Of a DNA stretch of 64,000 nucleotides, positions 2,938 to 30,012 are shown in pieces. Location: positions 511,079 through 575,078 of the forward strand of contig PEZS01000011.1 of assembly GCA_002778785.1 (NCBI GenBank), in the 5' to 3' direction. Every line of letters begins with the position of its first letter. The stretch's first letter is position 1. The notes below the pieces were generated by a model, which was given only the letters and a program-made list of their open reading frames with translations, made no database searches and was not told the origin of the DNA. Origin of the DNA: Bdellovibrionales bacterium CG10_big_fil_rev_8_21_14_0_10_45_34. Its GTDB lineage: Bacteria; Bdellovibrionota; Bdellovibrionia; Bdellovibrionales; 1-14-0-10-45-34. The translations under genes and the position numbers were made by a program.

Positions 2938-3716
2938 AGTTTTTCACTCGTTTGACTTTTGACCAACTGGCCATGAACACTCGCTTCATGCCAACTTGCA
3001 AGTTTTTGAGCAGTGACATCGCTGAGACTGCTAACAACCTTATCGGCTCCAGCTTCTTTAAGATTTTGGCCGATTCGGTCTAGGCCCAACGTTAAGCCAA
3101 CGTTGGCAGCCTTAGAAGCCTGCACACCGGATATGGCATCTTCAATAATAATAACGTCAGACGGACTACAAGAAAATTCTTTGATCAACTCCGAGAACAT
3201 ATCGGGATGTGGCTTGCCTCTTAAGTGCCTCTCCTTGATAGTGTTGCCATCGTAAATCTTTTTAAAGTATTTGGTTAGGCTGGCCCTTTCTAGCAAATAT
3301 CGGCAGTTTTTGCTTGAAGACGCCACCGCAAGGTCAATACTTACGCTACTTAAGTGATTGATTAAATTTTCACAATCTTTGAAAACTTCGACACCCAACT
3401 CGTCGATTAGATCCAAGAAGATTCTGTCTTTCTTGTTACCTATACCGACCACTGATTCAACTGACTGATCTGTATCTTCCCCGTGTGGCAGCTCAATATC
3501 TCGTGAGCGCAAGAAATTCCCGATTCCGACAAGCCTGGGTTTTCCATCGACATGTTCGTGATAGTCGGAGTCAATTCGAAACTCTTTAAAGGTCTCACCC
3601 TTTCTCTGCGATCTCTTGGCAAGCATCTCATCAAAGACACTCTTCCACGCTCTTGCGTGTACGACCGCTGTGTTTGTTATTACACCGTCCATATCAAAAA
3701 TAACCAGTTTAAACAT
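2934..3716 (-). CDS. HAD-superfamily phosphatase, beta-phosphoglucomutase-like
   Basis: A 260-residue HAD hydrolase. Motif I is FDMDGVITN at residues 7-15 (nucleophile D8, acid/base D10), motif II is ASSSKN, motif III lysine lies in GKPHPDMF, and motif IV is IIEDAISGVQASKAA. The cap insert DYHEHVDGKPRLVGIGNFL matches the subgroup of beta-phosphoglucomutase-like enzymes. The family either isomerises sugar phosphates or dephosphorylates them. I place the start at 3716, where ATG overlaps the upstream stop as TAATG; the frame is open a further 57 bp upstream but only inside the neighbouring gene. Its one-base coupling to a GT4-nucleotidylyltransferase fusion suggests it prepares a sugar phosphate for nucleotide activation by that protein (inference). 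Confidence 0.85.
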   Translation of the reverse strand: MFKLVIFDMDGVITNTAVVHARAWKSVFDEMLAKRSQRKGETFKEFRIDSDYHEHVDGKPRLVGIGNFLRSRDIELPHGEDTDQSVESVVGIGNKKDRIFLDLIDELGVEVFKDCENLINHLSSVSIDLAVASSSKNCRYLLERASLTKYFKKIYDGNTIKERHLRGKPHPDMFSELIKEFSCSPSDVIIIEDAISGVQASKAANVGLTLGLDRIGQNLKEAGADKVVSSLSDVTAQKLASWHEASVHGQLVKSQTSEKL

Positions 3717-5326
3717 TAGGGCGTAACGCCTATTCGCATGCGTTCGATGGCTTTGCTCGAGGAGGTTGTCCATTCGCGCGTAAAATAGACGCAGCCGCCA
3801 GCTTTTTCTACGGCCTGCTTTTCAAGCTGAAAGTTAGGATTAACTTGTTGATCTGGCGCTTCGTACTCGTCACCTTTTGCAAAATAGTTTGGCTTTAACA
3901 TCTCAATTGTTGGAACAGCAGATGGCCACTTATTGATTGCAACCCAACTTACTGCACCAAGCCCTGCAATCAACTCGGCACGCTGTTTCGCAGGAAAAAC
4001 AGGACGGTTTGGGCCTTTGTTAATGAACTCGTCTGGCGTAATGGTAGCAATGAGTACATCGGCTGCTTTTCTGGCTGATTCGAAGTGCCGCAAATGCCCG
4101 GCATGCAAAACATCGAAGCAACCGTGACACTGCACCACAGTTCTACCCTCAGATTTCACCTGCTCTACAATGGCAGCAAGTCTATCGAGAGTGACCACCC
4201 TGTCTCGTGAGCTGATTGGCAAGGTAGTGGTTGACGACTTAGGTAGTACTTCGAAGTAGAATTTGGCCATCTTAGCCATTTCATTATTGTAGTCGTTCTT
4301 ATCTTGAATAATTCTTCTCTCTCTTTCGCCTAGATTAGCGAGCTTCTCTTTTTCAGAAAACAGAGTCTCAATCTTAGTGACCAAATCCTCCGAATCGCTG
4401 GCTCGAAAAAGCTGATAAGGCTCACATATCCACTCTCGGTTTTCGCAAACATCTGAAACCACAACAGGCAGCTTCATAGCCATCGCCTCCGCGGTGCTTG
4501 CGGCTATTCCGGCGTCGGAGAGTGAGGCAGAAACGTATACGTCTGAAACTGTCAAAAACTCTTTGAGCTGTTTCATATTGTATCCGCCTAAAAAACTGAC
4601 TCTTTCAGCAATATTCAACTCTTGCACAAGGGCTTTGAGATTTTCCGTCTCTGGTCCTCGCCCAGCAACAAGCAGTTTTACAGATGGATGCTTTTTTTCA
4701 AGAAGCGGAATCGATTTAACGATCGTTGCAATATCGTAAACATCATAATGGTTCCGAGTACTAAGGATAACAGGGAACGCATCATTTAACTCGTAAGACT
4801 TTTGGAGTTCTCTTCGTTGACCTAAATCTGGTGTGAAGTCCACCGTATCAATACCAAAATTAATCCTCTTTATTTTTTTACGGTCGGCTCCCAGATCTAC
4901 CATAGCTTCTATCATGTGATCGGCGTCGGTTGTAACCATCAATGACTTTTCAAGAACCCTTTGGACCAATCTTTTCTTAGCTATGTTGTTTCGGTTCGTA
5001 AGAATATCGGAGCCCCAGGCTGTGCTTACAATAGGCGCCTTATCTTGAAGTAGTGCCAGCAAGCCGTAAAATCCAATGTAATGTACATGAATTAAATCTG
5101 GTTTCGTCTCTCTAACGACTGCGCGTATTTTTACAGCCGCCCTAGCGAAATTCCAGAGTTTACTTTTGGACCCTCCAAGCTCAATCACTTCTAAGCCCAT
5201 TTCTTGTCTTAACTTAGAATCAATTGTGTCAAAGGTTGCCCAAGCAACCTCAAATCCTGCTTTCTTAAAATACTTAATCCACTTGATGCTATGAATAGAG
5301 GATGAAGCTAAAAACAAAAGTTTCAC
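3716..5326 (-). CDS. GT4 glycosyltransferase fused to cytidylyltransferase-like domain
   Basis: A 536-residue two-domain protein. Residues about 1-370 form a GT-B glycosyltransferase of family 4: N-terminal MKLLFLASSSIHSIKW, mid-protein AWGSDIL, and the donor-site motif SDAGIAASTAEAMAMKLPVV. Residues about 394-530 form a nucleotidylyltransferase of the RfaE domain II/TagD type, with GCFDVLHAGH (HxGH motif at 408-411), then INKGPNRPVFPAKQRAELI and a late TTSSSKAIERM, equivalent to the ISTTKLI/R motif. The two activities are normally on separate proteins, so one chain may make and use an activated sugar or alditol. GTG start with GGGAG five bases upstream. It sits between an initiating sugar transferase and a HAD phosphatase in one operon. 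Confidence 0.85.
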   Translation of the reverse strand: MKLLFLASSSIHSIKWIKYFKKAGFEVAWATFDTIDSKLRQEMGLEVIELGGSKSKLWNFARAAVKIRAVVRETKPDLIHVHYIGFYGLLALLQDKAPIVSTAWGSDILTNRNNIAKKRLVQRVLEKSLMVTTDADHMIEAMVDLGADRKKIKRINFGIDTVDFTPDLGQRRELQKSYELNDAFPVILSTRNHYDVYDIATIVKSIPLLEKKHPSVKLLVAGRGPETENLKALVQELNIAERVSFLGGYNMKQLKEFLTVSDVYVSASLSDAGIAASTAEAMAMKLPVVVSDVCENREWICEPYQLFRASDSEDLVTKIETLFSEKEKLANLGERERRIIQDKNDYNNEMAKMAKFYFEVLPKSSTTTLPISSRDRVVTLDRLAAIVEQVKSEGRTVVQCHGCFDVLHAGHLRHFESARKAADVLIATITPDEFINKGPNRPVFPAKQRAELIAGLGAVSWVAINKWPSAVPTIEMLKPNYFAKGDEYEAPDQQVNPNFQLEKQAVEKAGGCVYFTREWTTSSSKAIERMRIGVTP

Positions 5327-5340
5327 AATGGTCTCCCAAA

Positions 5341-6081
5341 TTAAATCATTTCAACATTTCTATCAGTGACAACCTCGGTCGCACCCGGTGGCTTAGCCGG
5401 CAGAAGGGGTGCAGATCTACCAGAAACCGCAACAAGTTCCGCAGAGCCACCCAGTTTCTTCACCAACGACTGAACGCCTCGAAGTGCTAACGGTCGATTG
5501 ACAAAGGATAATACAGTTAACCAAATTACCTTTAAATCTAAAAAAAGGTTCTGATGTTCTACATAAAGCAGGCCCAGACGGCTCTTCCAAGGTCTTACTA
5601 GTTGATTGTAAGCGATATTAGCATCTTCGTAGCCCTCAAGAATGTTGGCTAAATCGAAAAACACAACAGAGGATAGATCCGTAACGCCCGGTTTAATTGT
5701 AAGAAGTTTTTTTTCTTCGTGGGTGTATATCTTGATTTCTCTTTGAACGTTTGGGCGAGGACCAACTACCGAAAGATCGCCCATTAAAACATTTAAGAAC
5801 TGTGTTAGCTCATCAACTTTAAATCGTCTTATTAAATGGCCTACACGAGTTATTCTGGGATCATCTTTTTTTGTCGAGTCCACTTGATTTGCGTGAGCGC
5901 CTACAACCATCGTGCGGATTTTGATCATTTTAAAAGGTAGAGCGTTCTTACCAACTCTCTCTGACAAAAAAAAGGGGCTTCTTCGGTCATGCCTATACAC
6001 GGCAAAAAGGGCTACTAATAACAATGGCGACGTTAAAATAAGTGCAAAAAATGAAAAGAAGATATCAAATAGCCGTTTCAT
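5341..6081 (-). CDS. Initiating sugar-phosphate transferase (bacterial sugar transferase family)
   Basis: A 246-residue member of the PF02397 family, which transfers a sugar-1-phosphate from a nucleotide sugar to undecaprenyl phosphate and so starts a lipid-linked glycan. It has one N-terminal hydrophobic segment (residues 4-28), the family motif PFKMIKIRTMV, the catalytic Asp-Glu pair in FKVDELTQFLNVLMGD, and SVVGPRP directly after it. It lacks the extra four-helix domain of WbaP/WcaJ-type enzymes, so it is the small monotopic form. The C-terminal 35 residues (rich in Pro, Ala, Val) extend beyond the family core. Its 5' end overlaps the aldo/keto reductase gene by 17 bp. The sugar transferred cannot be read from sequence. 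Confidence 0.9.
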   Translation of the reverse strand: MKRLFDIFFSFFALILTSPLLLVALFAVYRHDRRSPFFLSERVGKNALPFKMIKIRTMVVGAHANQVDSTKKDDPRITRVGHLIRRFKVDELTQFLNVLMGDLSVVGPRPNVQREIKIYTHEEKKLLTIKPGVTDLSSVVFFDLANILEGYEDANIAYNQLVRPWKSRLGLLYVEHQNLFLDLKVIWLTVLSFVNRPLALRGVQSLVKKLGGSAELVAVSGRSAPLLPAKPPGATEVVTDRNVEMI

Positions 6082-7045
6082 TTCTTACTCGCTCTTGGTT
6101 GGTATTAAATATGGAATCAATCTCTGATAGTTCCGCCGCTTCCAAACTGAAACATTCGGCTCCCCAATTTGACTCTAGCTGCTTGAGCGATTTCACTCCG
6201 GCAATACAAACGTCGATTGAAGATATCTGCTGGAGCCACCGAATTGCCACTGCAGAGACTGAAACGCCGTACTTGAGGGCATACTGTGTTAGCTTCGCAG
6301 CTCTTTCGACATTTCGCCTAAAATCCTCACCGATGAAGGCGGGCAGCCTGTGCCTGCGATCTGTTTGAGGGAACTGTATATCTTGGTTTTGAAACTTCCC
6401 CGAAAGCAGCCCTCGTTCTAAAACGCCATAAGCGAATGTTTTAATATTGTGGCCCCTTAAAAATCTCAGGTAAGAACCCTCAGCCTTTCGCTGTATCAGG
6501 CTGTATTGAAACTGCGCCGCTGAAATTGGATGGAGTTTTTGAATCTCTTCTAGATCTTTTAAGGCAAAATTCGAATAGCCGAACTCTCTTATTTTGCCGG
6601 TTTTTTGCAGGCCCACCAAGGTCTCAATCAAGAGCTCTTTTGGCACTTTCGGGTCAGGGTAGTGGACAAATAACAAAGGCACTGAATCTATTTGAAGCCT
6701 TCTAAGGCTGCCCTCAACGGAAGCTACGATGGCGCTAGGCTCAAGATTTACTTCCGTTACTGCACGCTCTTTGTCTTTTTGAAAGAAGTCGATTCCCACT
6801 TTTGTTCCAATGGTGACATCATGGCGCTTCGAGCCCAAATATTTTGAAAGGCGCTCTTCAGAAAGACCCAATCCATAGATGGGGGCCGTATCAAAGTACT
6901 TAACGCCAATCTCGACTGCTCTGACGATGGCCTCACCAATGTCTTGAATATCAACATCCCCCCAATCTGTGCCGCCAAGTGGCTCACAGCCAAATCCCAG
7001 AGTAGGAAACTCCAGATTTATCGAAGAGGGTTGTTGCTGCTTCAT
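6065..7045 (-). CDS. Aldo/keto reductase
   Basis: A 326-residue NAD(P)H-dependent oxidoreductase of the aldo/keto reductase superfamily (TIM barrel). Catalytic tetrad candidates are visible: D and Y in FDTAPIYGLGLSE, K in IGTKVGID and H in LLFVHYPDP. The C-terminal cofactor region is present (SSIDVCIAGVKSLKQLESN). Such enzymes in sugar clusters reduce keto-sugars or alditol precursors; substrate not determinable here. It starts with ATG at 7045 without a strong ribosome-binding site and lies 12 bp after the methyltransferase gene, with a 17-bp overlap into the sugar transferase gene, so it is embedded in the same operon. Confidence 0.85.
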   Translation of the reverse strand: MKQQQPSSINLEFPTLGFGCEPLGGTDWGDVDIQDIGEAIVRAVEIGVKYFDTAPIYGLGLSEERLSKYLGSKRHDVTIGTKVGIDFFQKDKERAVTEVNLEPSAIVASVEGSLRRLQIDSVPLLFVHYPDPKVPKELLIETLVGLQKTGKIREFGYSNFALKDLEEIQKLHPISAAQFQYSLIQRKAEGSYLRFLRGHNIKTFAYGVLERGLLSGKFQNQDIQFPQTDRRHRLPAFIGEDFRRNVERAAKLTQYALKYGVSVSAVAIRWLQQISSIDVCIAGVKSLKQLESNWGAECFSLEAAELSEIDSIFNTNQERVRNETAI

Positions 7046-7057
7046 AACTGTTATTCT

Positions 7058-7864
7058 TTAGTGAAGATTCTTTTTGGGCTCAGATAATATAAATACCATC
7101 TGCCAGGCCATAAGATTAAGAAGTGGAATTTTGAGCAAGATCTCGTCTATCTTCTCTGTTACTTTAAGAACTGGTTCAAAAACTTTTGTTCCGATAAACG
7201 GGATTGCACCCAAGGAAGCCAAATAGAAAAATTTCACTTCGACTTTGTTGAAATAGTTTTTTGCTAAATTCAGCTCGCGCAGAGTGAGAATATGATCGGT
7301 CTCCCACTCGGTTCTAAGCTTTGGTGTCATTTTGCGATAGAGCTGAATGACAGGATTGTAGCCCAGAGCCTCCATGGCCATAATCGAGCCGGTTGGCTTA
7401 ACAATTCGGGCCAGCTCCTTCCAGGCCTTTCGAATGTCTAGATGGTGCAATACGCCGTTACAGACGACAACATCAAATGTGTTATCTTCAAAGTCGGTGT
7501 TTTCGGCATCGCCAACTACGAATTTTGCATTGGTAAAACCGTTTGATTCAAGGAGCTCTTTCGCAGTTTCGACCTCTTTGCTAGAAATATCGATTCCTGT
7601 GACATTGGCCCCCATCTGGGCAAGATTCAAACTTGTTTGACCCAAGCCGCAACAATAATCGAGCACTTCTTTACCTTTGCAGTTCTTTCTGAGCCACTCG
7701 TTTTGGTAATCGACACTCTTTTTGACAATGCTGTAGAAGCGCTTATTAGAATATTTGGCCAAATACTCCTCTTCAGACATATTTTTTCGATCGGCCTCTC
7801 TTTGGTTATGAAAATTCGCCTCTTCCTTTTTGCGCTTTATTTCTGTTTGATCTGAATTCAGCAT
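7058..7864 (-). CDS. Class I SAM-dependent methyltransferase
   Basis: A 268-residue methyltransferase. Motif I is EVLDYCCGLGQTSLNLAQMG, followed by VTGIDISSKEVE (acidic residue binding the SAM ribose), VVGDAENTDFEDNTFDVVVCNGVLHHL and a late GSIMAMEAL strand: the standard Methyltransf_11 order. The N-terminal ~60 residues are charged and helical; the C-terminal ~80 residues are unassigned and partly hydrophobic (LKIPLLNLMAWQMVF). I place the start at 7864, where AGAGGA lies five bases before ATG, rather than the in-frame upstream codon at 7924. Target is unknown; a glycan or a lipid carrier is plausible from context. It heads a minus-strand operon leading to the flippase. Confidence 0.8.
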   Translation of the reverse strand: MLNSDQTEIKRKKEEANFHNQREADRKNMSEEEYLAKYSNKRFYSIVKKSVDYQNEWLRKNCKGKEVLDYCCGLGQTSLNLAQMGANVTGIDISSKEVETAKELLESNGFTNAKFVVGDAENTDFEDNTFDVVVCNGVLHHLDIRKAWKELARIVKPTGSIMAMEALGYNPVIQLYRKMTPKLRTEWETDHILTLRELNLAKNYFNKVEVKFFYLASLGAIPFIGTKVFEPVLKVTEKIDEILLKIPLLNLMAWQMVFILSEPKKNLH

Positions 7865-8075
7865 TGATTCCTCTTTTGTAAATGTTGTGGCCCTCAGAGT
7901 CTTTTCGTTTTTAGCCCCTACCAATACCGCCTCGAGCCTCTAAATTTTTGTCGCCTAATCATCGCCTCGTTTAAATGGGCAAACTACCAATTCATTCGAA
8001 TCTGCGTCAACGACTGCCGGGCCCCGCGCCTATTATCTTGCATATTTATTTGGCGGCTGTTACCTGAATTGATCA

Positions 8076-8974: not shown

Positions 8975-10090
8975 CTAAGAATTCGCTTCAGTTTCTCTGA
9001 CAATTCCTAGAATTGTTTTTGAAAATACTAAGACAATTCCAAATATGAGTCCCAAAACAACGGCACTCGGGAATATGACAAGCACCTGTGGTTTAACTGG
9101 ATCTTTGTGTGTATACGGAGCTTGGTCAACGTGCAAAGCTATCAAATAGCTCGATTTAAAATCAAAGGCTTCAAGCATTTTTAGCTGGTTCATTAGCTTG
9201 CGTACGGAATGGTCAAAGGACGCCGGATCCTTTCTGGCTTTAATTGCATTTATCTCAGCCCGCAATGCCTGACTGCCCCTAAAATAACTCAAATTCTCTG
9301 GCGAAGATAAGTCCGACATTTCGTCTGAATTTGCACTACTAAGCTGGCCATTTTCGACCAGTACAGTCTGCCGTGAACTAAAGGCCACTTGATCTGGCTG
9401 AACGAAAACCGAACGCGAAAGGCTTAGCCTGTTGGCAATACTTTCAGACTCTGCAAGTCTCGTTGTAGCACTCTCCCACTCTCGCTTTATCAGTTCATTT
9501 TTTAACTGAATCTGTTTTTGTAATGTCGCTCTTTTGTTCTCAATAGATTTTTCCATAAACGAAACGGCCGAGCCCACGATCTGCTCATTGGCAAGGGTGG
9601 CTAATTCAAATAGCCACTTCTCAGTCATTTTAGGTTCGTGAAAATCCATTGAAACGACATAGGCCTTGATATCTGGCCCCTCCCCTATGGGCGACATCGA
9701 AATCTTTGAATCAAACCTTTGGTAGAAAACTTCAGTTACCTCCTCAGGTTCCACGTCAACAGGCAACTGACCGGTCAAATGGTGATACAGACCCTTTTTA
9801 TCAAAGTACTCTCTTCTAAGAGTTTTTGAACCAAGGGCACCTACAGCCTGCTGAAAGAGATTTCCATTAGGACGGAATTCATTTGGTACGCCAAGCATAG
9901 ACAATGTATCTAGCGAAGGAGCTCCTATTTGAAGTTCAGTGCGGTAGCGCCACTTAGTTAAGGATACATAAGCAGTTGCTAAAATTAAGGCCGCGGCTAC
10001 CGATATCCAAATAAGTTTTTGCTCTCTCTTAAAGAGAATCAACAACTCTACAAGACCAATTTCCTCAGATAGTCCTTTTGAATTACCCAT
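8975..10090 (-). CDS. Wzz-like chain-length determinant (polysaccharide co-polymerase)
   Basis: A 371-residue protein with the Wzz topology: one transmembrane segment near the N-terminus (about residues 29-47, IWISVAAALILATAYVSL), a long periplasmic part with coiled-coil-prone helices rich in Glu, Lys and Gln, and a second membrane segment near the C-terminus (about 337-360), preceded by PVKPQVLVIFP, the usual Pro-rich motif. It lacks a tyrosine-kinase domain, so it is the two-helix type associated with O-antigen chain-length control rather than the BY-kinase type. It is four bases downstream of the E1 beta gene. Confidence 0.85.
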   Translation of the reverse strand: MGNSKGLSEEIGLVELLILFKREQKLIWISVAAALILATAYVSLTKWRYRTELQIGAPSLDTLSMLGVPNEFRPNGNLFQQAVGALGSKTLRREYFDKKGLYHHLTGQLPVDVEPEEVTEVFYQRFDSKISMSPIGEGPDIKAYVVSMDFHEPKMTEKWLFELATLANEQIVGSAVSFMEKSIENKRATLQKQIQLKNELIKREWESATTRLAESESIANRLSLSRSVFVQPDQVAFSSRQTVLVENGQLSSANSDEMSDLSSPENLSYFRGSQALRAEINAIKARKDPASFDHSVRKLMNQLKMLEAFDFKSSYLIALHVDQAPYTHKDPVKPQVLVIFPSAVVLGLIFGIVLVFSKTILGIVRETEANS

Positions 10091-10094
10091 ATCC

Positions 10095-11111
10095 CTACCT
10101 AACAGCCTCTGCGAATAAAGTTTTCTCTATTCTGTTTGAAAAGAATTTTTGCCGGATTTGGGCGACAATCTTATCAGTGGTCGGATAGTATTCGGACTCT
10201 AAAAATTTACTGGTCGGAGCTGGTGCACTCGGTAGCGTGACCCGCAAAGGAGCGCATTTGAAATGGTCAGGCCCAAGTTTTTCAAAAACGCTTGCTATTA
10301 CCTCACCCGCTAGTCCGCAGTTCCCCCAACTTCCATCAATCGCGACGAGGCGACCTGTTTTCTTTACTGAACTCACAATTACATCTGTGTTGAGCGGATT
10401 AATCACCCGTAGATCTATAACTTCAGCAGATATTCCTTGTTTGGCTAGCTCAACACTTGCAAGTTCGCATAGCTGTGCCGAGTAACTGGCACCAACGAGA
10501 GTTACATCGCTTCCTGCTCTTCTCACCTTCGGGCCCACTTGCGAAAGATCCTGTTCGATCACAGGGCCGAGGTCATCTTTGAGGTCATACAGCCAACGAT
10601 CATCTATAAACACTACCGGATCTTCGCAAAGAACACTTGCGATCAAAAGGTCTCGAGCATCAGAGGCGGTAGCCGGCATCACAACTCGTAATCCTGGCAC
10701 ATGTGCGTACCACGAATGAAGCGCCTGTGAGTGTTGTGCCCCCTGCTCGCCCCCGCGATTGATGATCCCGCGAATGGTAACCGATGGCCTCGCCTGACCG
10801 CCTAGCATATGGGCCCATTTGGCGGCTTGATTAACAATGGGGTCGGTCGCAAGCACCATGAAGTCGATGCGAGGATGTACCACCACAGGTTTGTATCCGC
10901 AAAGTGAAGCGCCAATGGCGGCTCCCGTGCAAGCGTTTTCAGATACTGGCGAATCAAGCACACGATCCTTACCAAACTTTACGTCGAGATCGGTCATCGA
11001 GTTACCAACATACCAAGGACTCCAGAGGCCCTGCCCAATAACAAAAACTTCTGGATATTTTTCTAAAAGATACTCAAAGCCCTTACAAATTGCCTCACCG
11101 TAGGAAGTCAT
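10095..11111 (-). CDS. Thiamine-diphosphate E1 component, beta subunit (transketolase-like)
   Basis: A 338-residue protein of the 2-oxoacid dehydrogenase E1 beta family (pyrimidine-binding plus transketolase C-terminal domains). Conserved features include DSPVSENACTGAAIGASL (the E1 beta SE....G.A.G motif), GGQARPSVTIRG, and HSQALHSWYAHVPGLRVVMP (the usual S...E..F.H.PGL.VV.P). The C-terminal transketolase domain starts near DVTLVGASYSAQ and includes VIDLRVINPLNTD. Its ATG overlaps the alpha subunit stop by four bases, indicating a heterodimer made in fixed ratio. No E2 acyltransferase or E3 lipoamide dehydrogenase is present in the window. In glycan clusters such pairs may decarboxylate a 2-oxoacid and transfer the resulting unit to a sugar (inference). 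Confidence 0.85.
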   Translation of the reverse strand: MTSYGEAICKGFEYLLEKYPEVFVIGQGLWSPWYVGNSMTDLDVKFGKDRVLDSPVSENACTGAAIGASLCGYKPVVVHPRIDFMVLATDPIVNQAAKWAHMLGGQARPSVTIRGIINRGGEQGAQHSQALHSWYAHVPGLRVVMPATASDARDLLIASVLCEDPVVFIDDRWLYDLKDDLGPVIEQDLSQVGPKVRRAGSDVTLVGASYSAQLCELASVELAKQGISAEVIDLRVINPLNTDVIVSSVKKTGRLVAIDGSWGNCGLAGEVIASVFEKLGPDHFKCAPLRVTLPSAPAPTSKFLESEYYPTTDKIVAQIRQKFFSNRIEKTLFAEAVR

Positions 11112-12196
11112 ATTATCTGCTCCTGAGCTTTACTAGAATAAACAATATCTAAAAGCATACTCTTCGCCGGATATGTTCCTGTATTTGTCTTCGCCCAAGC
11201 TGTTTCCACCTGGTCTTTTACCTCGATTTGTAATTTATCAAATTCTGCGCTAGTAAATTTGCCGCCGGCTACCAGAGAGTCGACGAGTCTTCTAACGGGA
11301 TCGCGTCTCTTCCAAACATCAAGATCATCTTTGCGCCTAACTCCGACGTCTCGATCTTCACTTGGGCCAACATGCCCACGCCATCTATAGGTTATAGCTT
11401 CAAGAAAGACCGGCCCGCCGCCACTGCGACAATGCTCAATAAGTCTTCTACTGGCATCCGCAACAGCTACGATGTCATTACCATCGACGACTTCGCATTT
11501 TATACCAGCAGCCGCAGCGAACCGCGCCACTGTGTCTGTGGGCTGCCTTAGATCAATGTGCAAATGACTAGAAAACAGGTTGTTCTCGCACATAAATACA
11601 ACGGGCAGATTGTACACTTTAGCTAAATTCAAAGACTCTTGAACAACGCCCTCTTCTGTTGCGCCATCTCCGAAAAATGCAACACCCACATCGAGATTTG
11701 AAGAGTCTTTCTTTCTCTGGCCATCCATTTTTGCGGCAAGTGCCGCACCCACTGCCAACGGCACCGTGCCCGCAACAATAGGAACAGTCCCCTTGAGGCC
11801 CTGCTTCTCAGCATACAAGTGCATGGAGCCACCAAATCCTTTTGAACACCCTTCTAGCATGCCCCGCACTTCGTAAAATAGTTCATCTAAAGGCGCACCT
11901 GACGCCAAATAATGCGAATGTGATCTATGGGCGCCAAACATCCTGTCGGAAGGTCGTATGGACTCACAAAATCCCACGGCTACAGCCTCTTGGCCTATAG
12001 CTAAATGGCACGGACAACTGATTGTTCCATCAACTACTTTGTCTGCTATTTTTTCTTCTGCGTATCGAATCACTAGCATTTTCTTAAGCCAGTGAGCTAA
12101 TTGATTCGCTTCGTATGATTTTAGATCAATTGGACCCGAATATTCACCTGCTTGTGCAAGCCGGCCTAATCTTGGCAAATTTTCTGAGTTCTGCAC
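11108..12196 (-). CDS. Thiamine-diphosphate E1 component, alpha subunit
   Basis: A 362-residue E1 alpha subunit. The thiamine-diphosphate signature starts at GDG (176-178) in FFGDGATEEGVVQESLN and closes with NN at 205-206 (CENNLFSS). Earlier motifs include HLAIGQEAVAVG, AHRSHSHYLASG and GFGGSMHLY, all standard for PDH/acetoin dehydrogenase E1 alpha. The region FSSHLHIDLRQPTDTVARFA holds the substrate-loop positions but not the PDH phosphorylation loop. GTG start at 12196 with GAGGG just upstream. The gene follows a DegT aminotransferase by 18 bp and precedes the beta subunit with an ATGA overlap. Substrate is unknown; the context argues for sugar biosynthesis instead of central metabolism. 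Confidence 0.87.
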   Translation of the reverse strand: MQNSENLPRLGRLAQAGEYSGPIDLKSYEANQLAHWLKKMLVIRYAEEKIADKVVDGTISCPCHLAIGQEAVAVGFCESIRPSDRMFGAHRSHSHYLASGAPLDELFYEVRGMLEGCSKGFGGSMHLYAEKQGLKGTVPIVAGTVPLAVGAALAAKMDGQRKKDSSNLDVGVAFFGDGATEEGVVQESLNLAKVYNLPVVFMCENNLFSSHLHIDLRQPTDTVARFAAAAGIKCEVVDGNDIVAVADASRRLIEHCRSGGGPVFLEAITYRWRGHVGPSEDRDVGVRRKDDLDVWKRRDPVRRLVDSLVAGGKFTSAEFDKLQIEVKDQVETAWAKTNTGTYPAKSMLLDIVYSSKAQEQII

Positions 12197-12214: not shown

Positions 12215-13330
12215 CTATCGTTTATAAAAATTTCTGATGGTCTCGCTAACAAAGTCGACGTCGTCGTTACTGAGATACGGATGCATCGGAATCATCATGC
12301 AACGCTTAAACATTGCATCTGTATAAACTAAGTCAGACCCATCAAGGCCTAGCTTTTTCATATGGTGTACGGCCCGTCCGCCCCACTGAACAAGAGTGCC
12401 GACTCCCGCCTCGTTCAAGTAGTTTCGAAGTCCATCCCTGTCATCTGCTTCAAGTTCGTAATTTTGAAAAACATCATAGTGTTCTTTTTCAGATTCAGGT
12501 GCCGGTGGAAGCTGCAATTGTTTTAGCTCGCCCAACTGCGACTGATATCTAGATGCAATTTCTCTTCGTCTAGAAACATCTTCTTCATAATACTTTAGTT
12601 TTAGGTTTAAGATCGCCGCCTGAATATTATCTAAGCGAGAGTTGTAACCCCACATGACGATCTCGTTGTCTTCACCGCGACCGTGATCTCTCAGAGCACG
12701 CACCAATTTAGCTGTTTCATCATCGCTTGTCAGAACAGCCCCCGCGTCGCCAAAAGCACCCAATGTCTTGGCAGGATAAAAACTAATTGTTCCTGCTTTA
12801 CCAAAAGTACCCGCGCACTTTCCGTTGAATTTTGAGCCTAAGGCTTGGGCAGCATCTTCAACTATTAATAGGCCATGCTTATCGGCCAAAGATTGAAGCG
12901 CTGCCATGTTGCAGGTTCTGCCATTAAGCTGAACAGGCAATATAGCTCTTGTTTTACTGGTAATTTTTTTCTCTACAGATTTTGCATCTAACATGTGATC
13001 TGGGCCACAATCGGCAAGTATTGGTTTTGCGCCAACAAAATGCACTGAAGAGGCTGTTGCAATAAAAGTATGCGAAGGCAGAATCACTTCATCCCCAGGT
13101 TGAACACCGCTAGCTTTAAGTGCAATCACAATGGCGGCTGTGCCATCGGCGACACCGAACGCATATTTAGAGCTGGTGAACTTGGCGAGATTAGCCTCGA
13201 ACTCTTCGAGGTCCTTCTGCATAATGAAGGCGCCCCTCTCTGCAACGTCAGTAATTGTTGCGAGGATTTCAGCTTTGCGACTTTGAAAAACTGCTGGATA
13301 ATTGAAGAAAGGTACTTTTCTATAATTCAT
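12215..13330 (-). CDS. DegT/DnrJ/EryC1/StrS aminotransferase
   Basis: A 371-residue PLP-dependent sugar aminotransferase (fold type I). The PLP lysine is K188 in SFYPAKTLGAFGDAGAV, the aspartate pairing with the PLP nitrogen is D159 in VEDAAQALGS, and the phosphate-binding turn is ADGTAAI near residue 61. The C-terminal motif WGGRAVHHMKKLG is usual. The family converts a keto-sugar nucleotide to an amino sugar with glutamate as donor. It is first in an operon with the E1 alpha and beta genes and wzz. The amino group it installs could be the acceptor for the FemAB-like acyltransferase at 574-1629 (inference). Confidence 0.88.
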   Translation of the reverse strand: MNYRKVPFFNYPAVFQSRKAEILATITDVAERGAFIMQKDLEEFEANLAKFTSSKYAFGVADGTAAIVIALKASGVQPGDEVILPSHTFIATASSVHFVGAKPILADCGPDHMLDAKSVEKKITSKTRAILPVQLNGRTCNMAALQSLADKHGLLIVEDAAQALGSKFNGKCAGTFGKAGTISFYPAKTLGAFGDAGAVLTSDDETAKLVRALRDHGRGEDNEIVMWGYNSRLDNIQAAILNLKLKYYEEDVSRRREIASRYQSQLGELKQLQLPPAPESEKEHYDVFQNYELEADDRDGLRNYLNEAGVGTLVQWGGRAVHHMKKLGLDGSDLVYTDAMFKRCMMIPMHPYLSNDDVDFVSETIRNFYKR

Positions 13331-23971: not shown

Positions 23972-24859
23972 ATGAAAATCCTTATCACTGGAGCTTCTGG
24001 CTTTTTGGGTTCTCATGTGGCGAAGGCTTGCCTTGCTCAGGGCCACAAAATCTTTGGGCTAACACGCTCACCCAAAAGTGCAAATGCTCTCCGTGACCTT
24101 GAGGTGCCATCGGGGAAAAAGCCAAACACTTTAAACTGGATTGGCGGGGATTTTTTGGGCTTACCCGACGAAATTGACGGCGTCATACATTGCGCCACAA
24201 GCTACGGCCGAAAAGGCGAAAACGAAAAGCAAATTTTTGAGGCAAATTTAGATTTTTCTGTGCGGATATTTGAACTCGCGCGTAAAAGGAAGGCTGAGTG
24301 GTTCATCAATATTCACACTTTGTTAGATCCAGAAACTAACCTCTATTCCGCCGCTAAACATGCCTTCAATAATATTCTCAAATCTCACACAAATGAGATT
24401 TCTTGCATTAGCCTAGCTTGCGAGAACTTCTATGGCCCGGGTGAGCCAAAGGATAGGTTTGTAACGTGGCTAATCGATGAATGCCTTATGGAAGGTGGAC
24501 CAATAAATCTTAGTTCGGGCGGTCAGTTTCGAGACTTCGTTTACATCGACGACGTCGTAGAGGCGATTCTTCGAGCCTTAGAATTAGCAAAGACCTCAGA
24601 GCTTAAACATCAAGAGTTCGCCATCTCCGGCGGAAAGCCTCTTTCTATTCGCGAAATCGCAGAGGCCATTTGTGAAATTGCAGCGCCACAAGCTGCCCAT
24701 AGACTCAAATTCGGTGCAAAACCCGATCGAAAGAGGGAGTTTGACGTCAACACAATTGACTTACCGACCCCAAAGAATCTAGGCTGGGAGCCTAAAACCG
24801 GGCTGATCGAAGGGCTTAAAAAGTCCGTAGAATTCGAAAGAAAGAGGTTAGGCTTATGA
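23972..24859 (+). CDS. prt: CDP-paratose synthase-like reductase (RfbS/Prt family)
   Basis: A 295-residue extended short-chain dehydrogenase: NAD(P) site ITGASGFLGSHVAKA, catalytic YSAAK (YxxxK, in LYSAAKHAFNN) and RDFVYIDDVVEAI. Family-level recognition as RfbS/Prt rests on matches I recall to the Salmonella enzyme: ATSYGRKGENE versus its CYGRHNE, NLYSAAKHAFNN versus its SLYAYTKQKANE, and the ENFYGP segment. This enzyme reduces CDP-3,6-dideoxy-4-ketoglucose to CDP-paratose. The gene is co-linear with tyv (ATGA overlap) and with ddhA, ddhB and ddhC. CDP-abequose synthase is the alternative, but the presence of tyv favours paratose. Confidence 0.72.
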   Translation: MKILITGASGFLGSHVAKACLAQGHKIFGLTRSPKSANALRDLEVPSGKKPNTLNWIGGDFLGLPDEIDGVIHCATSYGRKGENEKQIFEANLDFSVRIFELARKRKAEWFINIHTLLDPETNLYSAAKHAFNNILKSHTNEISCISLACENFYGPGEPKDRFVTWLIDECLMEGGPINLSSGGQFRDFVYIDDVVEAILRALELAKTSELKHQEFAISGGKPLSIREIAEAICEIAAPQAAHRLKFGAKPDRKREFDVNTIDLPTPKNLGWEPKTGLIEGLKKSVEFERKRLGL

Positions 24860-25890
24860 GGCTCTTGATAACCGGAGGATGCGGCTTTCTAGGCTCGAAT
24901 CTTGCGGCTCATGCTCTAGATAAAGGGTATGAGCTTGCAATTTTTGACAACCTTTCAAGAGCTGGTGCAACTCTCAATCTGGAGTGGCTCAAGTCAAAAG
25001 GTAAATTTCATTTTTTTGCATCCGACATTCGAAGTTTCAATGATGTTGAACGAGCCGTTAAAGAGTTTTCACCAGATGCAGTTTTTCATTTAGCGGGTCA
25101 AGTTGCCATGACAACCTCTATTGAAAACCCTAGAAAAGATTTTGAAATCAATGCCTTGGGCTCTTTTAACGTCCTAGAGGCTGTTCGAACTCACTCTCCG
25201 AAGGCCCAGATTGCCTATTCTTCTACTAACAAAGTTTACGGAGATCTCGGCGATATAGCATTTGTCGAGGAGCCAACAAGGTACCGCGCAAAAGACTTTC
25301 CGGGCGGTTTTGACGAGTCACTTCGACTTCACTTTGAATCGCCGTATGGCTGCTCAAAAGGTTCCGCCGATCAGTACATGCTAGATTATTCGAAAATCTT
25401 TGGCCTGAATACCGTCGTCTTTAGACACTCATCTATTTTTGGTGGTCGTCAGTTTTCGACATTTGATCAAGGCTGGGTGGGATGGTTTGTGCAAAAGGCG
25501 CTTGAAGCAAAGTCGGCAAAAAAACAAGATGGCTTCACGATCTCAGGAGATGGCAAACAAGTGCGCGATGTTCTATTTGCCTCAGATTTGGTAAACTTGT
25601 ACTTCTCTGTGCTCTCGCAACCCACTCCCTTGAAAGGAGAGGTTTTTAATATCGGCGGCGGTATAGAAAACAGTCTATCGCTACTCGAGTTATTCAGCTA
25701 TCTTGAAGAATCTCTTAATGTGAAATTGCAATACACAAAGCTCCCTTGGCGAGCGAGCGATCAGAGGGTATTTGTAGCAAACATAAGTAAGGCAAAAGAG
25801 ATACTGGGTTGGTCACCACAAGTGACTGCCCACCAAGGCCTTGATGCCATGATCGAGTGGCAGAAATCGCAGTTAGATCTTCAAAAGTAA
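24856..25890 (+). CDS. tyv: CDP-paratose 2-epimerase (CDP-tyvelose epimerase)
   Basis: A 344-residue NAD-dependent epimerase converting CDP-paratose to CDP-tyvelose by inversion at C2. It is a strong match to Salmonella RfbE/Tyv: LLITGGCGFLGSNLA, FDNLSRAGAT, HLAGQVAMTTSIENP, SSTNKVYGDL, SPYGCSKGSADQYMLDY (catalytic Y and K), GLNTVVFRHSSIFGGRQFS, QGWVGWF and SGDGKQVRDVL are near-identical to the characterised enzyme as I remember it. Length is right (Salmonella protein 338). Start ATG overlaps the prt stop by four bases. With prt, ddhA, ddhB and ddhC this defines a CDP-D-tyvelose route. Confidence 0.9.
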   Translation: MRLLITGGCGFLGSNLAAHALDKGYELAIFDNLSRAGATLNLEWLKSKGKFHFFASDIRSFNDVERAVKEFSPDAVFHLAGQVAMTTSIENPRKDFEINALGSFNVLEAVRTHSPKAQIAYSSTNKVYGDLGDIAFVEEPTRYRAKDFPGGFDESLRLHFESPYGCSKGSADQYMLDYSKIFGLNTVVFRHSSIFGGRQFSTFDQGWVGWFVQKALEAKSAKKQDGFTISGDGKQVRDVLFASDLVNLYFSVLSQPTPLKGEVFNIGGGIENSLSLLELFSYLEESLNVKLQYTKLPWRASDQRVFVANISKAKEILGWSPQVTAHQGLDAMIEWQKSQLDLQK

Positions 25891-25896
25891 ATTTGA

Positions 25897-26703
25897 ATGA
25901 GTACTTTTGAAGTGGAGAGGATAGAATTGGAGCCAATGACAGATTTAAGTCCAAAAAAAGCCGGCGACTCTAAGCTCTCGCCTGAGGAGTTTAGAGTGGC
26001 TCCCGCCACTCAGTCTCAATTAGAACTTTCTATTGTTATACCGAGCTACCTTGAAGAAGAGAATTTACGAATTCTCATTCCCAGGGTTAAAGAGACAGCT
26101 GCAAAACTTTCTCCAAAGTATGAAGTTCTTGTCGTTGATACGTCTCGAGCGATGGATAACACCGAAGAAGTTTGTGCCAACCTCGATGTGCGCTTTGTAA
26201 GACGCTCACCAACGGACAGCTTCGGTGACGCCGTTCGAACAGGCATCAAAGAGTGTCGTGGGCATTACGCACTCTTTATGGACGCGGATGGGTCACATCC
26301 ACCAGAATTTGCAGAGAGAATTTTTAACGCCAAAGAAGGTTACGACGTCGTTATAGCCTCTAGATATACTTCGGGCGGAGAAACGGAGAACCCGTTTTTA
26401 TTAAAGTTAATGAGTCGTGTGTTGAATATGTCTTATGCATTGGTCCTTGGGCTTAAGTGCCGAGATGTCTCAAATAGCTTTAAGCTTTATAAGAGTGAAG
26501 ATCTTAAGAGGTTAACTCTACGATGCGACAACTTTGATATTATTGAAGAGATTCTCTACAAAATGAATCGCGCAAAAAAATTAAAGATTCTTGAGATTCC
26601 GTTTACCTTTAAAAAGAGAATGTTTGGCGAAAGCAAAAGAAGTTTGCTGGCATTTATCTTTACTTATGTTGTTACTTTGTTTCGCTTAAGACTATCAAAG
26701 TAA
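25897..26703 (+). CDS. GT2 glycosyltransferase in the CDP-tyvelose operon
   Basis: A 268-residue GT-A enzyme. After a charged, probably flexible N-terminus of about 45 residues it shows [36 protein letters not shown] (where DPM1-like enzymes have D..S.D.T), the metal site [25 protein letters not shown] and the late [16 protein letters not shown]. This is the dolichyl-phosphate-mannose-synthase-like subgroup, which acts on polyprenyl phosphate. It has no C-terminal membrane helices but ends with a hydrophobic segment [12 protein letters not shown]. Placed between tyv and ddhA; it could transfer tyvelose, though this is inference from location. Confidence 0.8.
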
Positions 26704-26716
26704 ATTTGGAGGCTTT

Positions 26717-27490
26717 ATGAAAGCTGTTATTCTTGCCGGCGGAAAGGGCACTCGCATTAGCGAGGAGAGCCACCTTAAGCCAAAGCCCATGATCGAGATC
26801 GGCGGACGACCTATTTTGTGGCACATAATGAAAATTTATTCGCATTACGGGATCAACGATTTCGTCATCTGCTGTGGCTACAAAGGGTATGTCATTAAAG
26901 AATACTTCGCGAATTACTTTTTGCACAGCTCTGACGTTACGTTCGATATGACAAGCAACTCTATGCAGGTTCATCAAAATAGTGCCGAGCCCTGGCGAGT
27001 AACTGTCGTTGATACTGGCGAAGAAACGCTAACTGGGGGACGCCTCAAACGGGTAAAACAATATCTTGGTGCCGAAGATTTTTGTTTCACTTACGGCGAT
27101 GGCGTTGGCAATGTGGACATTGCCGAGCTCATCTCTTTTCACAAAAAAAACGGGCGACTTGCTACTTTAACTGCTACCCAGCCACCTGGAAGATTTGGAA
27201 GTTTGCATTTTGATGGCCCACTCATTACATCGTTTAAAGAGAAACCTCGTGGAGACGGCGGCTACATTAACGGTGGCTTCTTTATACTAAACCCAAAAGT
27301 GATCGACTACATTAGCGACGACACAACAATTTGGGAGCGTGAACCGCTAGAGAACCTCGCTAAAAATAAAGAATTAGTTGCCTACCATCACAATGGTTTT
27401 TGGCTACCCATGGATACTTTAAGAGACAAACAGACTCTTGAAGAAATGTGGGATTCTGGTTCTGCCCCCTGGAAAGTATGGTCCAATTAA
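26717..27490 (+). CDS. ddhA: Glucose-1-phosphate cytidylyltransferase
   Basis: A 257-residue nucleotidyltransferase (RfbF/DdhA) that makes CDP-glucose from CTP and glucose-1-phosphate, the first step to CDP-3,6-dideoxyhexoses. Family features: [54 protein letters not shown] (nearly diagnostic for this enzyme), [11 protein letters not shown] and [11 protein letters not shown]. Length equals the Salmonella and Yersinia enzymes. GGAGG six bases before the ATG. The ddhB gene follows three bases after the stop. Confidence 0.94.
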
Positions 27491-27493
27491 TTT

Positions 27494-28675
27494 ATGAATA
27501 AGAGTTTTTGGAAGGGCAAAAGCGTATTTTTAACAGGGCACACGGGCTTTAAGGGTGCCTGGATGTCTATGTGGCTGAGCAAAATGGGCGCTAACGTCAC
27601 GGGGTACGCGTTGGATCCAAACACGACGCCTTCACTTTATGAGCTCGCATGTGTTGCAGGTTATCTAAAAAGCGACATCAGAAGTGATGTGAGAAACCTT
27701 AACGTGCTTACAGACTCGATGGCTGCTGCTCAGCCCGACGTCGTATTTCATTTAGCCGCGCAGCCGCTTGTTCGCTTAAGTTACCAAGAGCCAGTTTCTA
27801 CTTTTGAAACTAACGTTATGGGAACTGTCAATCTGCTCGAGGCCTGCAGAAAAGTTACTTCAGTTAAAGTCGTTGTGGTTGTAACAACTGACAAGTGTTA
27901 CGAGAACCGTGAGTGGGTATGGCCCTACCGAGAGAATGAAGCTATGGGAGGGCGTGACCCCTACTCTGGAAGCAAGGGTGCGGCCGAGATTGTTGTATCG
28001 AGCTACAGAAGATCATTTTTTGAGTTTATAGAGTCTAACGGGCATATCTTGCGTGAAGGAGCAGCGCGTGTCGCTTCTGCAAGGGCTGGTAACGTTATCG
28101 GCGGGGGGGATTGGGCGGAAGATCGCTTAATACCTGACTTTTTTAGAGCGCAAAGTGCGAGTAGAAAACTTGTCGTAAGAAATCCGCAGTCGGTACGTCC
28201 GTGGCAACACGTTCTTGAGCCTCTATCTGGGTATATAAACCTGGCGGAAAAAATGTACGATTCGAGCGACAACTCAGATGCTTGGAACTTCGGGCCCAAC
28301 GAGACGGACTGCCAGACCGTGAGAGAAGTATTAGATTTGATCGAGAGGCATATGGGTGAGTCAGACCTTTGGGTTCACGAGCCTGAGAAAAACAAAACGC
28401 TCCATGAAGCAAATCTCCTAAAGCTAGATATATCAAAGGCTCGCTCTCAGCTTGGATGGTCCCCCCAGTGGGATCTTGCCACCGCAACAAAAATGACGGC
28501 CGATTGGTATTCGCTGTACTTGAAGCTACTGAAGAGCCAAAACTTTGAAGAGCTTCGGATGCTCACCGAAAATCAGATCGATCTGTACAGTGACACAAGA
28601 GAGCAACTAGCTAATGGATACTTGGATCGAACTCGCAGAGCTAGAAGCGGGCTAAGAACAAGAGGGAATTCATGA
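27494..28675 (+). CDS. ddhB: CDP-glucose 4,6-dehydratase
   Basis: A 393-residue NAD-dependent dehydratase (RfbG/DdhB) converting CDP-glucose to CDP-4-keto-6-deoxyglucose. Signatures: [60 protein letters not shown] (catalytic Y and K) and [22 protein letters not shown]. It is about 25-30 residues longer than most homologues because of a C-terminal extension rich in Arg ([17 protein letters not shown]). The GNVIGGGDW motif is encoded by a run of seven G (near 28103-28109), a possible slippage site. The stop overlaps the ddhC start. Confidence 0.94.
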
Positions 28676-30012
28676 AAACAGAACAGCAATTGAGAACTGA
28701 GATAAAAAGTTTGGTTGGCGAGTATTTTGAAGTGGCCCACAGGCCAAAATTAGAAGCACCTTTTGTAGCCGGTGAAACACGAGTCAATTATGCGGGCCGA
28801 ATGTTTGGCGCAGAGGAGATGCTGAATCTTGTTGATTCGTCCCTTGATTTTTGGCTCACTTCAGGCCGCTACTGCGACCAATTTGAAAGAAGTTTTTCGC
28901 AGAAATTGGGGGTCAAGTACACAGCACTCGTTAACTCAGGCTCAAGTGCCAACCTTGTCGCCTTTTACTCTTTAACCTCACCGCTTTTAAAAGACAGAAG
29001 AATTCGAAAAGGCGATGAAGTCATCACTGTCGCCGCGGGATTTCCGACTACGGTTGCCCCTATCATTCAGTTTGGTGCGGTGCCAGTTTTCGTTGATGTG
29101 AAAGTCGACGACGGTACATATAACATTGATGTTACGCAACTCGAAGCTGCTCGGACAGATCGAACTAAGGCTGTTATGGTGGCGCACACTCTGGGCAACC
29201 CTTTCGATTTAGATGCTGTTAAGGCTTTTTGCGAAAAACATGAACTTTGGCTTGTTGAAGACAATTGCGATGCACTTGGTTCAACTTACAAAGGTAAACT
29301 CACCGGTACGTTCGGAGACATCGCTACTTCGAGTTTTTATCCACCTCATCATCTTACAATGGGTGAAGGTGGCGCTGTTTATACAAGCAAACCCTTGCTG
29401 AAAAGATCCGTCGAATCGTTTAGAGATTGGGGCCGAGACTGTTGGTGTCCGTCTGGAAAAGACAACACATGTAACAAACGGTTCGGTTGGAAGTTAGGCC
29501 AACTACCTGAGGGCTACGACCACAAATACATCTATAGACATCTGGGTTTCAATCTAAAAGTCACAGATATGCAAGCGGCTATTGGATGCGCTCAGCTTGA
29601 GCGCCTTGATAGCTTTACAGAAGCACGTAGAAGCAACTGGCTACGACTTCGAGAGGGGTTGTCAAACTTAAAGGATCAGCTCGTGCTGCCTGAACCTACT
29701 GAAGGTGCAAGCCCCAGTTGGTTTGGCTTTGCGATGACTGTTCGAGAAAGCGCAAGCTTCACACGAAACGAGATTTGTGAGTACTTAGAGGAGAACAAGA
29801 TACAGACGCGAATGCTTTTTGGAGGCAATCTGCTTCGTCACCCTGCCTTTGATGAACTTCGTGATCAGCCGGGCGCTCTAAGAGTTGTTGGAGAGCTCCC
29901 TCAAACCGATCGCATCATGATGAACACGTTTTGGGTTGGCGTTTACCCTGGCATGATTCCCAATAAACTTGATTACATCATCGATAAGATCCAAAGCTTC
30001 GCCCGCAAGTGA
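28672..30012 (+). CDS. ddhC: CDP-4-keto-6-deoxyglucose-3-dehydrase (E1, iron-sulfur PMP enzyme)
   Basis: A 446-residue DegT-fold enzyme that uses pyridoxamine phosphate and a [2Fe-2S] cluster to remove the C3 hydroxyl. Instead of the PLP lysine it has histidine, in [15 protein letters not shown] (residues 220-234), as in RfbH/AscC. The cluster motif is perfect: C199, C257, C259 and C267, that is C-X57-C-X-C-X7-C. The phosphate turn [11 protein letters not shown] is present. Its partner reductase (DdhD/AscD), which delivers electrons from NADH, is not in this window. Start ATG overlaps the ddhB stop. It is the last gene of the operon; no T-rich terminator is seen after it. Confidence 0.94.

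Follow-up and report, generated by a model that had tools for sequence, protein, structure and literature searches.

E1-type thiamine diphosphate enzymes in surface-glycan gene clusters as candidate sugar-branching carboligases

Enzymes of the alphaKADH2 group are E1-type pairs that add a pyruvate-derived C2 unit to keto-sugars in the pathways of aldgamycin, kosinostatin, kibdelomycin, paulomycin, avilamycin and others (PMC12247030). Members include AviB1/AviB2 (avilamycin) and Pau11/12 (= Plm8/9, paulomycin), described in PMC4425429, PMC4802897 and PMC8234114, together with the aldgamycin and kosinostatin enzymes and KbDH-alpha/beta (kibdelomycin), which joins pyruvate to ketones in vitro (PMC12247030). 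In a later step the ketone of the branch undergoes reduction, as for paulomycin F and trioxacarcin, or transamination, as for kibdelomycin (PMC12247030); Pau7, of the aldo-keto reductase (AKR) superfamily, has been shown to reduce it (PMC4753412). Sugar-branching E1-type carboligases are known mainly from antibiotic clusters, and branching in LPS is credited to YerE-like enzymes (PMC12247030). In the formation of yersiniose A for the Yersinia O-antigen, YerE attaches two carbons derived from pyruvate to a nucleotide sugar at its C4 ketone.

The window considered here is a 64-kb stretch of the genome of Bdellovibrionales bacterium CG10_big_fil_rev_8_21_14_0_10_45_34 (PEZS01000011.1, positions 511,079 to 575,078). 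It encodes an E1 alpha/beta pair (Table 1) which, judging from its sequence and its neighbours, is probably a thiamine diphosphate (ThDP)-dependent carboligase of surface-glycan biosynthesis making a C-branched sugar, and not a dehydrogenase subunit. The pair resembles alphaKADH2 in having separate alpha and beta subunits with intact ThDP and catalytic residues, in lacking E2/E3 and in being surrounded by sugar genes; as in that group, pyruvate is the expected donor, with reduction of the branch ketone by an AKR-superfamily enzyme of the Pau7 type, or transamination, as the expected next step. Known alphaKADH2 members belong to actinobacterial specialised metabolites and dTDP/GDP-type deoxysugars, whereas the family of the window pair occurs in surface-polysaccharide clusters of at least 14 phyla with a PglC-like phosphoglycosyl transferase (PGT) and often a PglF-like dehydratase; its likeness to AviB, Pau and KbDH is one of gene content and published description. 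The reaction proposed here is of the kind carried out by YerE. The latter, however, is a flavoprotein of the decarboxylase superfamily that consists of one chain (TPP_enzyme_N/M/C domains) and uses CDP-4-keto-3,6-dideoxyglucose, whereas the window enzyme is a two-subunit protein of the PDH-E1 type (Pfam E1_dh and Transket_pyr/C). In the literature, no paper was found on E1 genes in O-antigen clusters with DegT.

The E1 operon and the other E1, E2 and E3 genes of the genome

The original prediction described a complete, translationally coupled E1 alpha/beta pair beside a DegT aminotransferase gene. Both open reading frames are indeed complete and lie exactly where predicted, the stop codon of E1 alpha overlapping the start codon of E1 beta (ATGA). 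Since the DegT gene ends 18 bp before E1 alpha, and 4 bp separate E1 beta from the Wzz-like gene downstream, these genes form one operon.

Table 1. Features of the window and their coordinates
Feature	Position	Strand	Support
PglC-like phosphoglycosyl transferase (initiating sugar-1-P transferase)	5341-6081	-	PF02397 5e-49; PglC 8g1n 4.5e-24
Aldo-keto reductase (AKR), whose relatives take the place of DegT next to E1 (17 loci)	6065-7045	-	PF00248 8e-58
Class I methyltransferase	7058-7924	-	PF08241 3.5e-26
Wzz-like chain-length protein, same operon as E1	8975-10090	-	PF02706 2.3e-6
E1 beta subunit	10095-11111	-	338 aa; PF02779/PF02780 (Transket_pyr + Transketolase_C) about 1e-24
E1 beta second signature NRGGEQGAQHSQ, residues 118-129, including catalytic His127	10725-10760	-	80/81 family members
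E1 beta family signature GQGLWSPWYVGNSM, residues 26-39	10995-11036	-	unlike all E2-linked E1s compared
E1 alpha subunit, ThDP enzyme of PDH-E1 type	11108-12196	-	362 aa; GTG start; PF00676 (E1_dh) 2.7e-58
ThDP/Mg motif GDG...ENN in E1 alpha, residues 176-206	11579-11671	-	alignment
DegT-family PLP aminotransferase, first gene of the DegT-E1 alpha-E1 beta unit	12215-13330	-	PF01041 1.1e-96
CDP-3,6-dideoxyhexose genes RfbF, RfbG, RfbH, CDP-tyvelose 2-epimerase and a further NAD-dependent epimerase-like gene	23972-30012	+	epimerase vs PDB 9rl0 3e-147

In Pfam and NCBIfam domain searches the two E1 genes score best against PDH E1 models, and the closest solved structures are human PDH E1 alpha (2.7e-46) and human PDH E1 beta (1.9e-50). 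Fold, ThDP motif and catalytic Glu and His are shared with PDH E1 alpha/beta and with AcoA/AcoB, and E1 alpha carries an AcoA-like HR.H motif. The pair differs from both in the absence of E2 from every locus of its family (with one weak E3-like match), in the E1 beta signatures GQGLWSPWYVG and NRGGEQGAQHSQ, and in its glycan context. The catalytic residues are intact in alignments (GDG...ENN motif, E1 beta Glu58, histidine of QHS).

The same features would also suit an ordinary E1 of the PDH/BCKDH type that uses a distant E2/E3, all catalytic residues being kept at 35-38% identity to E2-linked E1s. As predicted, tblastn searches with three E2s, one E3 and one ACP found none of these in the window. 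The suggested check of the whole genome (3.06 Mb in 16 contigs) for a lack of E2 showed that E2 is present: an E2-E3 cluster adjoining lipoyl synthase lies at 258.8-262.5 kb on the same contig (C11), which favours this explanation, and SucB is found at C16:246 kb. The genome nevertheless offers its E2/E3 other candidates, namely an AceE-like protein of 947 aa encoded 13 kb away (129 bits, vs a curated AceE cut-off of 860 bits) and another E1 alpha/beta pair (C10:149 kb); a match at C11:144 kb was rejected as a PDH E1, being a split transketolase. As SucA is present besides these two, the idea that the window pair is the only PDH/BCKDH E1 of the genome, which would have spoken against a carboligase, was discarded. 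By sequence, several proteins could serve the PDH E2, the window pair being one candidate among them. Within the order, a match at 1e-50 was obtained in 9/140 genomes and a close match in 4/140, the own genome included, which argues that the pair is accessory and not housekeeping. It is an extra E1 of the genome, and the 0/80 loci with E2 described below, in addition to the glycan genes in the operon and around it, make an ordinary PDH E1 very improbable. The C-terminal docking motif (D/E)VP(I/M)PY of PDH-type E1 beta is replaced by xAPAPTS in the family; this loss of the docking acid was dropped as proof of E2 independence, since the E2-linked AcoB lacks the acidic residue too.

A distinct E1 family in surface-glycan clusters

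Relatives were collected by one scan of one-per-species genomes with an E1 beta alignment, which yielded 80 loci from 14 phyla (E1 beta identity 48-70%), mostly in surface-glycan clusters; three of the 80 were duplicates of order relatives and were replaced by longer stretches of the same genomes, neighbourhood counts being made over 80. E1 alpha relatives showed 42-58% identity. Cultured members include Povalibacter uvarum (L036, with DegT) and Polaromonas eurypsychrophila (L067, with AKR). The members include marine lineages (Prochlorococcus, SAR86, Pelagibacteraceae) besides Bdellovibrionota, and three close relatives within the order, from three different families, carry the unit DegT-E1 alpha-E1 beta-PGT. 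The signature GQGLWSPWYVG formed part of the scan pattern, so that its invariance is partly due to ascertainment and was down-weighted as evidence; the signature NRGG(E/Q)QGAQHSQ lies outside the pattern and is present in 80/81 sequences. In the tree, E2-linked PDH E1 and AcoAB group together, apart from the family of the window pair (midpoint root, for drawing only). Neither E2 nor ACP was found by tblastn in the 1.09 Mb covering the 80 loci, with one weak E3-like match.

Sequence comparison thus places the window pair in a distinct and widespread E1 family. The original term "orphan" fits the locus, in which E2 and E3 are lacking, and is less apt for the pair itself, given its many relatives. 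Other clusters with E1, DegT and glycosyltransferase neighbours, which were to be looked for, are numerous among these loci. The prediction that an E1 without E2 would more likely be a carboligase than a PDH component is, on this comparative basis, the best-supported reading. Automatic annotation is likely to label genes of this family as pyruvate dehydrogenase, and metabolic reconstructions may be misled as a result.

Glycan loci L026, L027, L028 and L123 hold a second group of E1 alpha/beta pairs lacking E2 (36-43% identity), which is probably another sugar-acting E1 family. Its neighbours are two NAD-dependent epimerases, SIS-type isomerases or HldE-like proteins, and, in L123 (Solidesulfovibrio plasmid pDMC1), GDP-fucose synthase and DegT. 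In a genome of the same order (L030 8097-10166), E1 alpha and E1 beta are naturally fused into one protein of 689 aa, and a class III-aminotransferase-like gene lies next to it. E1 pairs of Streptomyces plasmids do not adjoin sugar genes and were of no help.

Exchange of DegT and AKR partners and the proposed pathway

Neighbourhood genes were scored by tblastn over the 80 loci. Of the two possible partners, DegT alone was found near E1 in 52 loci and AKR alone in 17; 2 loci had both, to which the window adds a further case, and 9 had neither (Fisher p 4e-9), 4 of these 9 being cut by contig ends. DegT relatives stand beside E1 in 54/80 loci (46-61% identity), a PglC-like PGT within 6 kb of E1 in 67/80, and a PglF/WbpM-like dehydratase within the examined stretch in 33/80. 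A class I methyltransferase recurs beside the module in 19/80 loci. In 42-46 of the 80 loci (e.g. L071 5590-6858) the E1 module is accompanied by a GT4 family with M.(I/V)WL...GEPLP at its N terminus, which possibly transfers the second sugar onto the branched first one. A PIG-L-like gene was noted beside E1 in L049 and L069.

Over 60 loci (13 with AKR), the DegT/AKR label changes 12 times on the E1 tree, where the labels are mixed almost as at random, and twice on the PGT tree. Both trees were built by a fast search and are poorly supported at many nodes; the identities given next do not rest on them. E1 beta identity is 61.3% for DegT-DegT comparisons, 62.2% for AKR-AKR and 61.6% across types, and PGT identity is 58.3%, 47.8% and 44.0%, respectively. 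For instance, L050 (DegT) and L067 (AKR) share 83% identity in E1 alpha and 86% in E1 beta, vs 43% in PGT. E1 is the constant part, exchanged freely between settings, and DegT or AKR is swapped together with the PGT.

Given an E1 shared across types and a PGT that goes with one partner or the other, it is simplest to suppose that E1 forms one carbonyl product, which DegT aminates or AKR reduces, and that the PGT recognises the sugar in its final form. Such a shared product, modified afterwards by either partner, fits the constant E1 and the variable PGT, and the two alternative partners match the two known fates of the branch, transaminated or reduced. In the proposed pathway, a PglF/WbpM-type dehydratase, encoded in the same cluster, would form UDP-2-acetamido-2,6-dideoxy-4-keto-hexose; the E1 alpha2beta2 enzyme would decarboxylate pyruvate and pass the hydroxyethyl/acetyl carbanion on to the ketone of the sugar, so that a tertiary alcohol carrying a C-acetyl branch is formed; the branch ketone would be converted to 1-aminoethyl by DegT transamination or to 1-hydroxyethyl by AKR reduction; and the matching PglC-like PGT would transfer the sugar phosphate to the lipid carrier, where it would be the first sugar of the repeat unit. 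The substrate may be other than pyruvate, and the branch may be at C3 instead of C4. For the product, predicted as a branched or acyl-modified sugar, a C-branched one is favoured by these comparisons and an acyl-modified one appears less likely.

The alternation of DegT and AKR requires only a shared carbonyl product, and ThDP enzymes tolerate many acceptors, so that the E1 pair could also be a carboligase or decarboxylase with a non-sugar-ketone acceptor (a small acyloin or another aldehyde), DegT or AKR completing a substituent before its attachment to the glycan. Some loci have neither PglF nor RfbG in the stretch examined, in keeping with such an acceptor. It is considered unlikely, as the PGT acts on nucleotide sugars and follows the DegT/AKR type, so that the product is probably on a sugar before lipid loading, and as characterised E1-like pairs beyond primary metabolism act on keto-sugars (PMC12247030).

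A further possibility comes from the Campylobacter PglF-PglE-PglD-PglC set (UDP-diNAcBac pathway), in which a PglF-like dehydratase, a DegT aminotransferase and a PglC-like PGT are likewise encoded together. The gene set here resembles pglC-pglE-pglF with E1 in place of the acetyltransferase PglD; the C4 ketone of the PglF product might then be the direct substrate of DegT or AKR, yielding a sugar similar to bacillosamine or to QuiNAc/FucNAc, while the E1 pair does separate tailoring. Unlike the Campylobacter set, however, the family loci have E1 alpha/beta, a DegT nearer to C3-type aminotransferases, and often AKR in place of DegT. The PLP lysine of the window DegT (FYPAK) is kept and is invariant in 4 orthologues, which argues for an aminotransferase rather than a dehydratase; its best solved relatives are 7b0d, QdtB, DesV and WbpE, with 264-298 bits for the C3-type QdtB, DesV and WbpE vs 219 for the C4-type perosamine synthase and 164 for ArnB. 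This closeness to C3-type sugar aminotransferases over C4 enzymes of the PglE/ArnB type speaks against a plain bacillosamine step, and by itself would neither define the ketone of DegT nor point to an exocyclic one. Direct action at C4 is made quite improbable by the equal association of E1 with amine- and alcohol-forming partners at up to 86-90% E1 identity, which implies independence of their product; moreover, N- or O-acylation is not done by ThDP chemistry without E2 or an oxidant.

Returning to the branching of a keto-sugar, we tentatively suggest, with somewhat less confidence than even, a widespread and previously undescribed class of surface glycans whose starting sugar is a UDP-activated 6-deoxy-HexNAc, branched at C4 by an E1-type carboligase, and in which interchangeable DegT + PGT or AKR + PGT halves convert one and the same C-acetyl intermediate to the 1-aminoethyl or the 1-hydroxyethyl sugar. 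What is new is the spread in surface glycans and the exchangeable halves; the chemistry itself has its precedent in antibiotic sugars. If this holds true, the envelopes of many bacteria would carry C-branched amino or hydroxy sugars, maybe missed by compositional analysis, and the family would represent a large natural set of ketone-accepting carboligases.

Acceptor sugar and surrounding glycan region

A PglF-like protein was found in 57/73 E1-carrying genomes vs 49/140 genomes of the order of the window, an enrichment that is suggestive. Many of the 16/73 E1 genomes without a match at the threshold are incomplete, and the 35% base rate is that of one order and of an unmatched set. PglF is a common glycan gene, and in the own genome it lies outside the window, at C11:492.2-494.2 kb in the same glycan cluster, 17-19 kb upstream. 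From these occurrences, the acceptor is probably the PglF/WbpM product, UDP-4-keto-6-deoxy-HexNAc. CDP-glucose genes RfbF/RfbG occur near or between the E1 genes in two loci (L049 and L087). In the window, the CDP-dideoxyhexose genes likely represent a CDP-tyvelose pathway in a Bdellovibrionota-related genome; they were considered as a possible source of the acceptor, and PglF was preferred, as they form a tyvelose set including an epimerase.

The window has both partners, DegT next to E1 and a methyltransferase-AKR-PGT set (Table 1), and both likewise occur in L064. The window PGT groups with the AKR-type PGTs (SH-aLRT 94 in the tree). Either both fates of the branch are used here, or one of DegT and AKR serves another sugar.

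At 3716-5326 (- strand), the window encodes a glycosyltransferase fused to an RfaE/HldE-domain-II-like nucleotidyltransferase; the nucleotidyltransferase domain of a kinase-like protein in L027 is 41% similar to it. The glycan region that holds the PglF-like gene also contains a GEPLP-type GT4 (L121 11692-12960), both genes lying 14-19 kb ahead of the window. This region (C11:484-503 kb) also holds further sugar sets (L121 754-3501 and 16208-18986), consisting of a WbpE/WbpB/WbpD-like trio and of a LegC-family aminotransferase with a sugar formyltransferase and a PIG-L-like deacetylase.
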